This document shows, one piece after another, positions 28,633 through 34,965 of a stretch of 64,000 nucleotides of DNA. Numbering within the stretch: the first letter of the stretch is position 1; every line of letters begins with the position of its first letter. The stretch lies in NCBI GenBank assembly GCA_025060105.1, contig JANXCS010000008.1:1-64000 (forward strand), given 5' to 3'. Source of the stretch: Pseudothermotoga sp. (GTDB lineage Bacteria > Thermotogota > Thermotogae > Thermotogales > DSM-5069). Made by a program: the position numbers and the translations under genes. The notes beneath the pieces were generated by a model, which was not told where the DNA came from, ran no database searches, and saw nothing but the letters and a program-made list of their open reading frames with translations.

Positions 28633-29358
28633 GTGCTCAAACTGTTGAACGTAGGCCTTTCGAAGGATTCAAAGCAAATTTTGAAACATCTCAACTTGAT
28701 CTTCGGTGAGCAAGAAGTTCATGTAGTCATGGGGCCAAACGGTTCAGGAAAATCTTCACTCGCTTACACGATCATGGGTCTTGAAGGATACAAACCAACG
28801 GAAGGTAAGATCCTCCTTGATGATAGGGACATCACGAACTTAGGAGTGGCTGATAGAGCCAAGCTTGGGATACATTTGATGTGGCAGGAGCCTGCAAGAT
28901 TCCGTGGTTTGACTGTCAGACAATACCTCACACTCGGCGGCAAATTGAAAGTTTCTCAGTCTGAACTGGAAGAAGTTTTGCATCTGGTAGGTTTATCTCC
29001 AAGTTTGTACATCAACAGGATGGTCGATGAACTGCTCAGTGGTGGTGAGCGGAAACGTGTGGAGCTTGCTTCAATTTTGTTACTCAAACCTAGGTATGCG
29101 ATACTCGATGAGCCAGACTCAGGAATAGATGTGCTTTCTCTGGACATGATAAAGTCCATCGTTGAAAAAATAATAGAAAAAGGTGGGTCAGCGATCGTTA
29201 TCACTCACCGAGAAGAAGTGGCATCCATCGCCGATGTAGCACACGTTCTGTGTGACGGTAGGATCGTACGCAGTGGTCTCCCAGATGAAGTTATGAATTA
29301 TTACAAAAATTTCTGTGATGTGTGCAACCATACGAATGTACCAACGATTGGAGAGTGA
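28633..29358 (+). CDS. sufC: Fe-S cluster assembly ATPase SufC
   Basis: 241 residues. Walker A GPNGSGKSS, signature LLSGGERKRVELASI, Walker B YAILDEPDSGID and switch His (VITHREEV) are all intact. It is the SufC type: soluble, forming a complex with SufB/D to build Fe-S clusters on the scaffold. GTG start after GGGGTGTG. It is first of a plus-strand cluster that continues through sufB, PNP and two NifS-IscU pairs. A further partner SufD is not encoded here, so a SufB-like homodimer is likely, as in the minimal SufBC systems of Thermotogae and archaea. Confidence 0.93.
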   Translation: MLKLLNVGLSKDSKQILKHLNLIFGEQEVHVVMGPNGSGKSSLAYTIMGLEGYKPTEGKILLDDRDITNLGVADRAKLGIHLMWQEPARFRGLTVRQYLTLGGKLKVSQSELEEVLHLVGLSPSLYINRMVDELLSGGERKRVELASILLLKPRYAILDEPDSGIDVLSLDMIKSIVEKIIEKGGSAIVITHREEVASIADVAHVLCDGRIVRSGLPDEVMNYYKNFCDVCNHTNVPTIGE

Positions 29359-29362
29359 TACT

Positions 29363-30322
29363 ATGCAAGTCGAAGTCGATAGAAGAGCAGAATTCGAAGC
29401 TCTCGTTAGAGCTTACGAGAAAGCCGGTGGTGATGTTTCAAAATTCCTCGATAGAAGGATTGCCTCGATCATCATCAGCGGTGATAAGGTGGTTGGGCTC
29501 AACAGTGTGCCAGGAGTTGAACTAGTTCCAGAAACCATAGAAAACGGTGTTCATGCGAAAATGATCATCAAGAAAGGTACAAAACTGTCTTTCCCTGTCC
29601 ACGTTTGTACAGGTTATTTAAAGCGCGAAGGTTATCAAAGGGTAATCTTCGATATAGTAGTTGAAGACGATGCGGAAGCTCATTTCGTGGCGCACTGCGT
29701 TTTTCCTTGGACGAAGCAGTTCACACACGATGCGCTCATGAATGTGACGATCGGGAAAAACGCCAAGATGTCCTATTCCGATGAACATTACCACGCTGAC
29801 ACCGGCACGGTCAATTTGATCACAGTCTCGAGGGTATTGGTTGAATCGAACGGACTTTACGTCAATCGATTCACACTCACCAAAACAAGGGTGGGTAAGA
29901 TGAGGCTCGATTTCTCGGTAGAATTGAAGGAGCGTGCCGTCGCGGATGTTTCAGCGAAAGTGAAGGCAAGTGGCGAAGATGTTGTGGATGTTCATGAAAA
30001 GATAGATCTAGTTGGTGCAGAATCACGAGGCATCGTGAGCACAACGATCGTGGCACTGGACAAGGCGAAGGCACGCGTGGTGAACGAAGCCTATGGTAGG
30101 GGAGACAACGCGAAGGCCCACATAAAATGTGAAGAGATAACCAAGGGAACAAACGTAGAGGTGAGCACGGTTCCAATTTTGAAAGTGTTCAACGAAAAAT
30201 CTGAGTTGACGCATGAAGCTTCGATAGGCAGAGTGAATGCGAAACAACTTGAAACTCTCATGAGCAAAGGGTTGAACGAGGAAGAAGCTGTGGAGCTCAT
30301 CATAAAAGGGCTTTTAGATTGA
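29363..30322 (+). CDS. sufB: SufB/SufD-family scaffold
   Basis: 319 residues. The beta-helical core is visible as alternating short strands (MSYSDEHYHADTGTVNLITVSRVLVES). The C-terminal region ending in ASIGRVNAKQLETLMSKGLNEEEAVELIIKG matches the SufB/D C-terminal signature (h-x-IG-x-h....L-x-Y-L-x-S-R-G-h....A). It is short compared with E. coli SufB (~495), matching the compact archaeal and thermophile version. The start at 29363 avoids overlap with sufC and gives a 4-bp gap. Confidence 0.9.
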   Translation: MQVEVDRRAEFEALVRAYEKAGGDVSKFLDRRIASIIISGDKVVGLNSVPGVELVPETIENGVHAKMIIKKGTKLSFPVHVCTGYLKREGYQRVIFDIVVEDDAEAHFVAHCVFPWTKQFTHDALMNVTIGKNAKMSYSDEHYHADTGTVNLITVSRVLVESNGLYVNRFTLTKTRVGKMRLDFSVELKERAVADVSAKVKASGEDVVDVHEKIDLVGAESRGIVSTTIVALDKAKARVVNEAYGRGDNAKAHIKCEEITKGTNVEVSTVPILKVFNEKSELTHEASIGRVNAKQLETLMSKGLNEEEAVELIIKGLLD

Positions 30323-31167: not shown

Positions 31168-32340
31168 ATGAAAATTTTTCTCGATAACTGCAGAACAACG
31201 AGAGTAGTTCCAGAAGTTCTCGAGGAAATAAAAAAATATATGCTCGAAAAGTTCGCAAGACCAGATGGTCTTTACGAATCGGCACAAGAAATCTACGATG
31301 AACTGGTAGAAGCTAGAAAATTCTTTGCCAAAACGATAAATGCATCCTCCGAAGACGAAATCGTGTTCACATCTGGAGCAACTGAGTCGAACAACCTGGC
31401 GTTACTCGGTGTTGCGAGAGCGAATAGAAAGAAAGGTAACCACATAGTGATTTCTGCACTCGAACATGGATCTGTCATGAGTATCGCGGAAGCTTTGAAA
31501 AGGGAAGGCTTCGAGATCAGTGTTGTACCAGTCGACGGAGAGGGTATCTTGAGGCTGGACGAACTTGAGAAGTCATTGAGGCCAACAACGATTCTGGTGA
31601 GCATCATTGCGGTTGGTCACTTCGTTGGCTCGATCATGCCGTTGAAGGAAGTTGGTGAAATTCTATCAAGACAAGATCACAAAATTTACTTTCACACGGA
31701 TGCTGCAGAGATGTACGCCAAAATGCCAATAGATGTTCAGAAGTTGAAAATAGATCTTTTGAGTGTCAGTGGACACAAGTTCCATGGGCCAAAAGGTGTT
31801 GGCTTTCTGTATGTACGCAAAGGCACGAGGATCGAACCGATCATGTTCGGAGCAGAGGCTTTCGATAAGCGAAGACCAGGTGGAGAAAACGTGCCAGCCA
31901 TCATGGGCATGAGGAAAGCGGCGGAGCTTGCCTTCGAGCGCCTCGATGAGACATACAAGAAATTGAGAGAACTTCAGAATTATTTCATAAGTAGAGTGGA
32001 AAACGAAATAGACCACGTGGTTTTAAATGGACCGAGGGGAGAGAAAAGAACCCCCTACAACGTGAATTTCAGTTTTTCATTCATCGAAGGTGAAGCGATA
32101 AGCCTAGCTTTGAGTATGGAGGGCGTGGAAGTAGCTACAGGTTCAGCTTGCGCTTCTGAATCGCTCGAACCAAACTACGCGATCTTGGCCATAGGTGGTG
32201 ACCACGAACGTGCACACGGTTCCATCAGATTCACGTTCAACAGGTTCACAACGAGAGAAGAAGTAGATTACACGATCGAGAAGCTCAAAAAAGTTGTTCA
32301 CTGGCTACGCACCATCAGTCCATTGAAAGCTGAGAGGTGA
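31168..32340 (+). CDS. Divergent NifS-like cysteine desulfurase (first copy)
   Basis: 390 residues, class V aminotransferase fold. PLP-Lys204 in SVSGHKFHGPKG and catalytic Cys328 in TGSACASESLEPN are present. Other hallmarks are altered: the N-terminal LDNAATT reads LDNCRTT, the AVNNEVG loop reads AVGHFVG, DAAQ/DATQ reads DAAE, and the GGGQERGxRSGT loop reads GAEAFDKRRPGGE. The last helps bind PLP phosphate from the other subunit. Possibly a desulfurase of altered activity or a regulator. A NifS-like gene occurs at this place in the T. maritima suf cluster too. It is followed by a canonical IscU (8-bp gap). Confidence 0.8.
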   Translation: MKIFLDNCRTTRVVPEVLEEIKKYMLEKFARPDGLYESAQEIYDELVEARKFFAKTINASSEDEIVFTSGATESNNLALLGVARANRKKGNHIVISALEHGSVMSIAEALKREGFEISVVPVDGEGILRLDELEKSLRPTTILVSIIAVGHFVGSIMPLKEVGEILSRQDHKIYFHTDAAEMYAKMPIDVQKLKIDLLSVSGHKFHGPKGVGFLYVRKGTRIEPIMFGAEAFDKRRPGGENVPAIMGMRKAAELAFERLDETYKKLRELQNYFISRVENEIDHVVLNGPRGEKRTPYNVNFSFSFIEGEAISLALSMEGVEVATGSACASESLEPNYAILAIGGDHERAHGSIRFTFNRFTTREEVDYTIEKLKKVVHWLRTISPLKAER

Positions 32341-32348
32341 TATATATC

Positions 32349-32732
32349 ATGTTGAAATACACAGAGTTGGTTCTAGATCATTTCAAAAATCCCAGAAATC
32401 TGGGTAAGATAGAAAATGCAGATGCCGAAGCCACCGAAGGTAGTGTCGCTTGTGGAGACATGATGACGGTCTATCTGAAAATCGAGGACAACAGAATAGT
32501 TGACATAAAGTTTGAATCCTACGGGTGTGCTGCGAACATCGCAACGGCTTCCATGATGACCGAAGTTGTCAAAGGTTTAACGCTCGAGGAAGCCAAGAAG
32601 ATCACTTGGAGAGACATTGTGGAAAGACTCGGTGGTTTGCCACCAGTGAAGTACCATTGTAGTAACCTCGCGATCGATACTCTGAGAAAGGCTATAGAGG
32701 CTTACGAGAATTCACCTGTCAGGAGGCGATAA
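32349..32732 (+). CDS. iscU: IscU/NifU-N Fe-S scaffold
   Basis: 127 residues. The three cluster Cys are all in place: VACGD (Cys35, with Asp37), YGCAANIA (Cys60) and KYHCSNLA (His103-Cys104). N-terminal LVLDHFKNPRNLG is typical. It accepts sulfur from a NifS-type desulfurase and holds a [2Fe-2S] or [4Fe-4S] cluster. ATG 32349 is used, with AGGTGAT upstream; an in-frame GTG at 32337 overlaps the previous gene. T. maritima TM1372 is the equivalent gene. Confidence 0.92.
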   Translation: MLKYTELVLDHFKNPRNLGKIENADAEATEGSVACGDMMTVYLKIEDNRIVDIKFESYGCAANIATASMMTEVVKGLTLEEAKKITWRDIVERLGGLPPVKYHCSNLAIDTLRKAIEAYENSPVRRR

Positions 32733-32734
32733 GG

Positions 32735-33865
32735 GTGAGGGTGTATCTCGATCACGCAGCCACAACACGTGTCTTCGATGAAGTCGCACGAGAGGTTTTC
32801 AAGCTTTTCACAGATTTTTACGGGAATGCTTCGAGCACACACGCTCACGGCTATGAAGCAAAAAAAATTTATGAAGAAGCAAGGGGGAAAATAGCGAAAC
32901 ATTTGAACGTTGATCCGTCTGAGATCTACTTCACATCGGGTGGTACAGAATCAGACAACATCGCAATATGTGGCTTTCTGAAAGCGAATCATCCAGACGG
33001 TGGCCATCTCATAACAACACAGATAGAACACCCCGCTGTTCTGGAAGTCATGAGACAGCTAGAAAAGCGGGGTTACAGTGTCACGTACCTGAAACCAACA
33101 CCGGAAGGTTACGTCACACCAGATGATTTTCGAAAAGCTATAAAGAAAAACACCGTCTTGGCATCGATCATGTGGGTGAACAACGAGACGGGTGCGATCC
33201 AGCCGATAGAAGAAATCTCAAAGATAGCCAGAGAGCACGGAATAACTCTGCACAGTGACGCGGTTCAAGCAATTGGAAAATTGAAGATCGATGCAAAACT
33301 CGTTGACATGTTGTCTGCGTCTGGTCACAAGTTCTATGCCCCAAAGGGGTGCGGTTTTCTTTATGTATCGAAATCTGTGAAGATCGAGCCTATCATGTAC
33401 GGCGGTGGCCATGAGAAAGGTTTGAGGAGTGGGACTGAGAACGTCCCTGGTGCACACGGAATGGCCGTTGCACTCGATCTGATCGATAAAAATTATACAG
33501 AATGGTCCAAGAAGTTGGAACGCTTCAAAAGAAAGATCGTGGAAGTCATCGAGAACATTCCAGACCACCACATCAACGGTTCGAACACCATCTTTTCGCA
33601 CATCAACGTCTCGTTCAAAGGCATTTCTGGGGAAACGCTCGCAACGGCGCTCGATCTGTACGGTATATCCGTTTCCATGGCTTCCGCTTGCTCTTCTCAT
33701 CACAGTATCAAGCGTTCTCACGTCCTAGAAGCGATGTCACTTGAGGAATGGATGATGGATGGAGCCATCAGGATAAGCATGGGTTACGATAACAGCGAAG
33801 AAGAGATAGATTTCTTCGTCAAAGTTCTTCTCGAAGAAGTGTATAGACTCAGGAAGATGGCGTAG
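32735..33865 (+). CDS. Cysteine desulfurase NifS/IscS (second, canonical copy)
   Basis: 376 residues. VYLDHAATTRVFDE, FYGNASSTHAHG, TSGGTESDNIAI, MWVNNETGAIQPIEE, SDAVQAIGKL, SASGHKFYAPKG (PLP-Lys), YGGGHEKGLRSGTENVPG and MASACSSHHSIKRSHVL (catalytic Cys) are all canonical. It removes sulfur from cysteine, giving alanine and an enzyme persulfide. The loop after the Cys is of the NifS-like type also seen in T. maritima TM1692. GTG start 2 nt after the iscU stop. It pairs with the unusual IscU-like gene that follows. Confidence 0.92.
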   Translation: MRVYLDHAATTRVFDEVAREVFKLFTDFYGNASSTHAHGYEAKKIYEEARGKIAKHLNVDPSEIYFTSGGTESDNIAICGFLKANHPDGGHLITTQIEHPAVLEVMRQLEKRGYSVTYLKPTPEGYVTPDDFRKAIKKNTVLASIMWVNNETGAIQPIEEISKIAREHGITLHSDAVQAIGKLKIDAKLVDMLSASGHKFYAPKGCGFLYVSKSVKIEPIMYGGGHEKGLRSGTENVPGAHGMAVALDLIDKNYTEWSKKLERFKRKIVEVIENIPDHHINGSNTIFSHINVSFKGISGETLATALDLYGISVSMASACSSHHSIKRSHVLEAMSLEEWMMDGAIRISMGYDNSEEEIDFFVKVLLEEVYRLRKMA

Positions 33866-33877
33866 GGGGTGAGATCT

Positions 33878-34228
33878 GTGTATTCGGAAAAATTCAAGCA
33901 ACTGTTCTTGTATCCGAAATACTGTAAGGATATAGAGTACACCCACACGGCAGAAGGATTCTATCCTGAACACGGAGACAGGGTTAGAATATTTCTCAAG
34001 ATAGAAAATTACATCGTCAAAGATGCGGCTTTCAAAGCCGTTGGTTGTCCGAGGGTCATAGCTGCCTCCGAAGCTGTTTGTAGATTGATCAATGGAAAGC
34101 ATGTGGATGACATAAAATCTCTCAACGAAGAACACGTAAGGGACGAGATGGATTTTCACGATAAAACTTTCACCTGCATAAATACTCCCATAGAGACTGT
34201 GAAAAAGGCGATAGCAAAGCTAGAATGA
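33878..34228 (+). CDS. IscU-like protein with His in place of first cluster Cys
   Basis: 116 residues, clearly IscU fold: YPEHGDRVRIFLKIE aligns with the CGDxxxxxLKh strand, VGCPRVIAASEAV with GCxxxxASxS, and FTCINTPIETVKKAI with HCSxLAxxAhxxAI. The Cys residues are at 57 and 100, but position 32 is His (EHGD); the His normally preceding the third Cys is Thr. A cluster with His ligation, or a sulfur-carrier role, are possible. GTG 33878 lies 8 nt after GGGGG; GTG 33869 overlaps it. The ZIP transporter gene starts within its stop (4-nt overlap). Confidence 0.75.
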   Translation: MYSEKFKQLFLYPKYCKDIEYTHTAEGFYPEHGDRVRIFLKIENYIVKDAAFKAVGCPRVIAASEAVCRLINGKHVDDIKSLNEEHVRDEMDFHDKTFTCINTPIETVKKAIAKLE

Positions 34229-34965
34229 GCAGCTTTTGGCGTGGACTGATTTACAGTAGTGTTGCAGGTATCACCACTGCATTAGGAACGATACCATTTT
34301 TGTTGTTCAACAGGATCGTGAGTCAGAAAACTATAGACGTTTTTCTTGGATTCGCTGCAGGCGTTATGCTCGCAGCTAGTGTTTTCAGTCTCGCCTTACC
34401 ATCGATAGAACTTGGAGGCCCATTAAGGTTCGCCATCGGTTTTCTGATAGGTGGAGTTTTGGTCGATGTTATGGACAAATTGCTTCCGCACGAGCATTTC
34501 ACGAAAGGACACGAAGGCATAGATGTGAAGCGTTTGAAGGCAATTTGGTTGTTCATCATAGCCATCACCATTCACAACTTTCCGGAGGGTATGGCAGTTG
34601 GTGTGGGAGCATTCACTCCGCACGCTCTGACCATAGCCATCGCGATAGGTCTTCAGAACATCCCAGAGGGCGCCGCAGTGGCTGCATCTTTGATGAGTGC
34701 CAAATACAGAAAATCTTCCATCTTCTTCATCACTCTGTTCACAGGTCTGGTTGAAGTTGTTGGAGGGTTCCTCGGGGTGTTGCTCGTGAGCTTTGCAGAA
34801 AATTTACTTCCGTACCTCCTAGCACTGGCCGCAGGGGCAATGGTTTTCGTGATAAGCGATGAAGTCATACCTGAAACACATTTGAAAGGAGCAGAGAGGA
34901 TCACCACCTACTGGCTTCTAATCGGTTTTGTTCTCATGACCATGTTCGATGTGCTTTTGGGCTGA
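34225..34965 (+). CDS. ZIP-family metal transporter
   Basis: 246 residues, eight predicted helices. The helix 4 and 5 motifs ITIHNFPEGMAVGVG and GLQNIPEGAAVAASL contain the HNxPEG metal site shared by ZIP proteins. The loop between helices 3 and 4 is polar with His (PHEHFTKGHEG). It imports divalent metal (Zn, Fe or Mn) into the cytoplasm. Its start overlaps the IscU-like stop by 4 nt. Iron supply for the adjoining Fe-S genes is an attractive but unproven reading. Confidence 0.88.
   Translation: MSSFWRGLIYSSVAGITTALGTIPFLLFNRIVSQKTIDVFLGFAAGVMLAASVFSLALPSIELGGPLRFAIGFLIGGVLVDVMDKLLPHEHFTKGHEGIDVKRLKAIWLFIIAITIHNFPEGMAVGVGAFTPHALTIAIAIGLQNIPEGAAVAASLMSAKYRKSSIFFITLFTGLVEVVGGFLGVLLVSFAENLLPYLLALAAGAMVFVISDEVIPETHLKGAERITTYWLLIGFVLMTMFDVLLG

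Follow-up and report, generated by a model that had tools for sequence, protein, structure and literature searches.

A 64,000-nucleotide stretch of DNA from Pseudothermotoga sp. (contig JANXCS010000008.1, positions 1 to 64,000 of the forward strand; hereafter the window) carries two adjacent gene pairs for iron-sulfur cluster assembly, NifS1-IscU1 and NifS2-IscU2, whose alterations fall on opposite members. The first pair joins a desulfurase homologue with a changed pyridoxal 5'-phosphate (PLP) pocket to a canonical scaffold, and the second joins a canonical cysteine desulfurase to an IscU lacking two of the residues that hold the cluster. This mirror-image pattern is real and well supported by the residue, pairing and conservation data given below. 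It is quite possible, and this is the reading that we tentatively prefer, that the four genes form two IscS-IscU pairs with separated functions, one for sulfur release and the other for cluster assembly.

Residue state, conservation and pairing of the four proteins

The first-pass annotation had placed two NifS-IscU pairs at positions 31168-34228, and all four genes were found as it described them. Their residues were read in E. coli numbering, using the IscS reference sequence from NC_000913 and the IscU ligand positions Cys37, Asp39, Cys63, His105 and Cys106. Compared with E. coli IscS, NifS1 showed the replacements A11R, N155H, E156F, Q183E, S241P and T243G and retained T76, H104, D180, H205, K206, C328 and R354. 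NifS2 was canonical at all compared positions except for a Gly at A75, a common variant, and the full type I set (PLP lysine, His104, Asn155, Asp180, Gln183, Thr243 and loop Cys328) was present in 16/16 of its relatives, apart from one truncated C-terminus. NifS1 fails this set through N155H, Q183E and T243G in 12/12 sequences, with K206, H104, D180 and C328 present. The loss of several PLP-pocket motifs claimed for NifS1 at first pass thus holds for N155, Q183 and T243 and does not extend to the residues essential for aldimine chemistry; the accompanying statement that the PLP lysine and the catalytic Cys persist was borne out by K206 and C328 in the alignment.

The five ligand positions of IscU1 read C-D-C-H-C, as in 16/16 sequences, while those of IscU2 read H-D-C-T-C in the window and H/D-D-C-x-C in 15/15 Thermotogota. 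The same annotation had called IscU1 and NifS2 canonical and had reported that in IscU2 His32 takes the place of the first Cys and a Thr that of the His preceding the third Cys, all in agreement with these data, the Gly at position 75 of NifS2 being the only departure. Pfam scores were 255.7 bits for NifS1 and 272.2 bits for NifS2 with Aminotran_5, and 151.9 bits for IscU1 and 56.0 bits for IscU2 with NifU_N. In their mobile loop, NifS2 and its Thermotogota relatives also have a His three residues past the catalytic Cys (C-x-S-H, in most cases with another His next to it), a feature not seen in the other groups compared.

Apart from NifS2, no fully canonical desulfurase of this kind was found in the genome. 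The third-best class-V aminotransferase match, an open reading frame at C1:246339, adjoins a SerA-like gene and was rejected as a further desulfurase, since it looks like a serine/glyoxylate-type aminotransferase, a name given by inference. A genome search returned no IscU besides IscU1 and IscU2. The assignment of IscU2 as a SufU was likewise rejected, with 34.3 bits for NCBIfam SUF_scaf_2 against a cut-off of 92.5.

Both pairs occur in 11/11 genomes of the window's family, the window included. Across this family NifS1 is 74-87% identical, its altered residues (A11R, N155H, Q183E and T243G) are fixed, and the PLP lysine, His104, Asp180 and catalytic Cys are retained. H155, E183 and G243 were found in 12/12 Thermotogota genomes, namely the 11 of the family and G047, from another family, where the conserved block GHFVG reads AHFVG and the members of each pair are still together although the pairs themselves are on different contigs. 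Free variation among relatives, the sign of drift for which the alignment was checked, was absent, the NifS1 changes being fixed in 11/11 family genomes and essentially so in the twelfth. Within the genus, the nonsynonymous divergence (dN) was about 0.08 for NifS1 versus about 0.12 for NifS2; only dN was compared because synonymous divergence (dS) was saturated. Of the two NifS proteins it is thus, if anything, the altered NifS1 that is conserved more strongly. A frame-split, NifS-like extra gene was observed in another genome of the family (G006, L041:2591-3836); it bears HTDAAD, NHEIG and WPGVENVP motifs over two overlapping reading frames and looks like a frameshifted degenerate NifS copy.

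Three other Thermotogota families hold both pairs, one of them in the identical four-gene order. In families f4 (G045, G051 and G057) and f7 (G048 and G054) the NifS1 relative is only ~36% identical to that of the window and shows similar changes, with RTT for ATT, His for N155 and Ala for T243, the lysine being kept; in G048 the contig stops before this gene. IscU1 of these families is canonical and bears a C-terminal PF01883 domain, NifS2 is canonical, and in IscU2, where the contig or assembly shows one, the first Cys is replaced by Asp. The order NifS1-IscU1-NifS2-IscU2 of the window recurs in G045. Between the pairs of G048 lie an Rrf2 regulator and two small genes that, judged by eye, resemble a HEPN/nucleotidyltransferase pair. 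A scan of named genomes returned canonical NifS only among its best 80 matches.

The pairing rule was evaluated on all pairs read. The neighbour of each of the 67 degenerate IscS proteins (51 without the lysine and 16 with an altered pocket) is a canonical IscU and never an altered one, and the scored residues are canonical in every IscS found next to an altered IscU; L212, which was flagged as degenerate and differs at N155 alone, was left out of the 67. The automated pair count gave 25 altered pairs, as the Methanosarcina-type HGD sequences gap at the first Cys, were scored as "incomplete" and were read separately. The altered IscU proteins conform in 34/34 cases to [H/D]-D-C-(not H)-C: the first Cys is only ever replaced by His or Asp, Asp39, Cys63 and Cys106 are invariant, and His105 is gone. 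Joint changes at N155, Q183 and T243 were confined to the degenerate groups and never occurred in the canonical sequences compared. The parts themselves are of known kinds, comprising IscS, IscU, minimal iron-sulfur cluster (ISC) pairs, lysine-less archaeal IscS and IscU with His for Cys. In open-licence papers, which are weak evidence for a negative, we found no account of alterations in opposite members of two pairs, and no report of their recurrence in bacteria and archaea or of the consistent replacements that mark the altered IscU.

Recurrence in archaea and Clostridia and origin of the pairs

A NifS1 profile was searched against 247 genomes of the phylum of the archaeal locus of Candidatus Methanofilum, together with a NifU_N survey and fetched regions. 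Search score played a part in the choice of the archaeal genomes that were read, which are also related, and their counts are not those of a random sample. Besides fully canonical pairs, three kinds of pair were seen in archaea and Clostridia. In kind (i) the PLP lysine of the IscS is replaced by Thr, H104 by Asp or Asn, N155 by Gln and Q183 by His; this IscS always accompanies an IscU of ~212 amino acids with canonical ligands and, in those scanned, a PF01883 tail. In kind (ii) an IscS of the Archaeoglobus type, with Asp for the lysine, stands beside a canonical IscU. Kind (iii) consists of a canonical IscS with an IscU that lacks the first Cys and the His, the Cys being replaced by Asp in 11 genomes and by His in 8. 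In the 11 Asp-type archaeal genomes kinds (i) and (iii) supply all the IscU genes, thus forming the same mirror image as in the window.

An altered IscU was found in 19/28 archaeal genomes with a kind (i) pair and in 0/15 without one (n = 43 read), a difference whose Fisher p = 1e-5 describes this score-selected, related set and not independent events. Kind (i) was also present in 4/398 genomes of the phylum of a Clostridia genome. The rule that a lysine-less pair implies an altered IscU was rejected, having failed on these four Clostridia genomes. In both groups, as read at L386 (Clostridia) and L264 (a methanogen), a DsrE-family gene (PF13686) precedes the lysine-less IscS and the IscU-PF01883 fusion, and the three genes are a conserved unit. 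About ten archaeal genomes (L309-L316 and L318-L320) carry an Asp-type lysine-less IscS beside IscU, in several cases the sole IscU, and the Archaeoglobus situation is therefore widespread.

In the IscS tree, NifS1 and the lysine-less Thr group of methanogens and Clostridia lie on one side of a branch with support 98/92, and in the IscU tree IscU1 and the IscU of that group form one clade (100/99). The PLP lysine position is Lys in all 16 Thermotogota NifS1 and Thr in 34/34 members of the methanogen and Clostridia group. These placements indicate that the pair 1 family is common to Thermotogota, methanogens and Clostridia, the lineage of the window representing the form that still has the lysine. 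The PF01883 domain is present in the related Thermotogota families and in methanogens and is missing from IscU1 of the window.

The IscS partners of the altered IscU proteins yielded a different picture. A single clade, and with it a single origin, was rejected (p = 1e-6) and three changes were counted; on the assumption that each IscU was inherited with its partner, the altered form has about three origins. The IscU alignment is short and does not by itself settle the matter, with p = 0.064 for a common origin of all three groups and p = 0.04 for the two archaeal ones. The Archaeoglobus Asp group fell outside the clade of NifS1 and the Thr group in the best tree, where a joint origin was not rejected (p = 0.39); a separate origin of that group was accordingly not supported.

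Gene neighbourhood of the pairs in the window

The genes from SufC to the ZIP-family transporter form one tightly packed run on the + strand (Table 1), and the flanking purine nucleoside phosphorylase (PNP) and ZIP genes are syntenic in the family wherever the contig extends. The start of IscU2 was set by the open reading frame caller at GTG 33869; GTG 33878 is preferred as the most likely start because relatives begin with Met-Tyr-Ser, and it also fits the His32 numbering. A whole-genome search found no second SufB or SufD besides the PF01458 protein of the run, and hence the genome has no SufB and SufD pair. This protein adjoins SufC, a SufBC-only arrangement in a bacterium.

Table 1. Coordinates and features of the genes in the run (window positions).
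Gene	Position	Strand	Features
SufC-like ATPase	28633..29358	+	in the gene run of the NifS/IscU genes
SufB/SufD-core protein	29315..30322	+	335 amino acids, lacks the N-terminal part; sole PF01458 protein of the genome
PNP	from 30337	+	between the SufB/SufD-core gene and NifS1
NifS1	31168..32340	+	IscS/NifS-type; altered PLP pocket (A11R, N155H, Q183E, T243G); Lys204 (E. coli K206) and Cys328 kept; partner IscU1
IscU1	32349..32732	+	canonical scaffold: Cys35, Asp37, Cys60, His103, Cys104; in the clade of the partner of lysine-less IscS (methanogens, Clostridia)
NifS2	32735..33865	+	canonical type I cysteine desulfurase; mobile loop ASACSSHH
IscU2	33878..34228	+	IscU homologue; first cluster Cys replaced by His32, His before the third Cys by Thr; Asp34 and second and third Cys kept
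ZIP-family metal transporter	34225..34965	+	gene start lies within the end of IscU2; synteny kept across the family

Possible functions and relation to known systems

The split of functions that we tentatively prefer builds on observed gene content, linkage, conservation, residue and pairing pattern, phylogeny and recurrence; every biochemical step in it we infer. In pair 2, NifS2 would be the working cysteine desulfurase that releases sulfur, and IscU2, no longer a cluster scaffold, would accept and carry it as a persulfide through Cys63 and Cys106, with a metal-capable His or Asp at the former first-Cys site. Pair 1 would assemble clusters on IscU1 as the scaffold. NifS1, with a weakened or lost desulfurase activity, would serve mainly as a dimeric docking platform for IscU1, with its loop cysteine available as a ligand, by analogy with the Archaeoglobus IscS. 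Sulfur would pass from pair 2 to IscU1 or arrive as sulfide. Pair 2 is best read as the sulfur-releasing one because it combines a canonical desulfurase with an IscU devoid of two cluster-holding residues and endowed with two candidate sulfur-accepting cysteines. The IscS of A. fulgidus has no desulfurase activity, and its Cys321 ligates the [2Fe-2S] cluster that IscU carries (PMC7585200, PMC9769115). Direct acceptance of sulfur is possible at more than one cysteine of IscU (PMC2854127), and in E. coli IscU the first acceptor has been proposed to be Cys37 (PMC2854127, PMC9769115). A wider proposal, possible although somewhat doubtful, is that iron-sulfur assembly has repeatedly been split into a sulfur-only complex, of an active IscS and a persulfide-carrying, scaffold-dead IscU, and a cluster-only complex, of an inactive IscS lending a cysteine ligand and a scaffold IscU, sulfur being passed between the two complexes; in that case NifS1 of the window's lineage would be an intermediate in which the lysine persists.

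Several points weigh against this separation. Cys37 is absent from IscU2, whose sulfur uptake would therefore need Cys63 or Cys106, and NifS1 may still be active, since the PLP lysine, His104, Asp180, Arg354 and the catalytic Cys are kept. Sulfide may be the source of sulfur, as many archaea have only a lysine-less IscS beside IscU. Nine archaeal genomes hold a lysine-less pair and no altered IscU, and 3/4 Clostridia with kind (i) also hold a canonical pair, no IscU read there being altered; pair 1 therefore does not require an altered pair 2.

The intact lysine, His104, Asp180, Arg354 and loop Cys in all NifS1 proteins are also what would be expected of two parallel working systems with different clients, in which an active NifS1 with retuned PLP chemistry would make clusters with IscU1, pair 2 would transfer sulfur to, for example, tRNA thiolation or cofactors, and no sulfur would move between the pairs. 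The missing scaffold residues of IscU2 and the internal co-inheritance of the pairs, kept in G047 even on separate contigs, agree with such an arrangement. We consider it rather unlikely, however, as both the lysine and His104 have disappeared from the sister clade of NifS1, N155, Q183 and T243 changed jointly in degenerate groups only, and the gene run holds no tRNA-thiolation gene. Less probable again, though it deserves mention, is a scheme in which NifS2 would donate sulfur to both scaffolds, NifS1 would be a non-catalytic stoichiometric partner or chaperone of IscU1, and IscU2, putatively loaded with Zn or Fe, would activate or restrain NifS2 and not carry sulfur. The His or Asp at the first-Cys site leaves four possible metal ligands in 34/34 altered IscU proteins, the ZIP metal transporter gene overlaps IscU2 and is syntenic in the family, and the C-x-S-H loop of NifS2 (mostly C-x-S-H-H) could reach a metal on IscU2; against this stands the invariance of the candidate sulfur acceptors Cys63 and Cys106, although a metal site alone could explain it. 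Finally, the altered proteins score lower than their canonical counterparts for their families, as decaying duplicates without present function would, but the genes are intact family-wide, the rate of change is lower in NifS1 than in NifS2, different genera share the fixed substitutions and an identical set of ligands arose more than once. Drift is thus very improbable, pseudogenes being rejected by conservation and intact reading frames, and chance is not applicable, since relatives share the changes.

The earlier interpretation of the locus fared unevenly. The proposed divided labour gained support from the recurrence of the mirror-image arrangement in other families and in archaea and from the fixed NifS1 changes. 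The idea of His ligation in IscU2 did not stand, the first Cys being His in the window's family and Asp in three related families and 11 methanogens, and neither did any weight on the Thr before the third Cys, a position that varies freely (T, E, D, K, V or R) with only the absence of His conserved. Nothing points to a regulatory NifS1, for which the closest characterised parallel, the Archaeoglobus IscS, suggests a platform or cysteine-ligand role. That NifS2 serves both scaffolds is possible, given its standing as the only fully canonical desulfurase of its kind found in the genome. In the ISC field the route of sulfur from desulfurase to scaffold, and the IscU cysteine that receives it first, are still argued. 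Systems that seem to separate both jobs, and in which separate lineages have given up identical ligands, offer a direct way to tell sulfur-accepting residues from cluster-holding ones.

Bacillus SufU is an IscU-fold sulfur acceptor that works with a desulfurase and is not a scaffold, and a structure match carried the molecule name 'zinc-dependent sulfurtransferase SufU' (PDB). IscU2 differs in that its length leaves no room for the SufU insertion and its desulfurase partner is of type I instead of type II. As in the MIS and SMS minimal systems (MisSU and SmsBC; Garcia et al., as cited in PMC12442378 and PMC11559095), the genome combines IscS-IscU pairs with one SufB-like protein and SufC in the same run and has neither SufU nor a further SufB/D; two mirror-image pairs are present here, in contrast to one standard MisSU.

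The A. fulgidus IscS-IscU complex (PDB 4EB5, 4EB7 and 4HVK) similarly joins an IscS without a normal PLP site to a canonical IscU, and its 4eb5 chain C is the best solved-structure relative of IscU1 (2.4e-44), although there Asp replaces the lysine. Methanosarcina acetivorans IscS1-IscU1 (MA0808-MA0807) also combines a degenerate IscS with a canonical IscU (PMC7585200), the matching archaeal sequences share clades with NifS1 and IscU1, and the PF01883 C-terminal domain occurs on IscU1 of related Thermotogota families; MA0808 and MA0807 were equated with these sequences by description only (24.2 kDa IscU1, lysine missing). The archaeal IscS lacks the PLP lysine and His104, whereas NifS1 of the window has both, and the window has neither the C-terminal domain on IscU1 nor a DsrE gene upstream. 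M. acetivorans IscU3 (H32, D34, C57 and C101; PMC7585200) resembles IscU2 in its His for the first Cys, its canonical IscS partner and the same retained residues, but a common origin with NifS2-IscU2 was rejected by the partner-IscS trees and a third, fully canonical pair exists there. The archaeal His-type altered IscU group fits the published description of IscU3, and kind (i) that of IscS1-IscU1 (PMC7585200). The authors of that work remarked that the Methanosarcina IscS1 and IscU3 copies are possibly non-functional or have other roles (PMC7585200); the separation of sulfur release from cluster assembly, if true, would explain these puzzling proteins.

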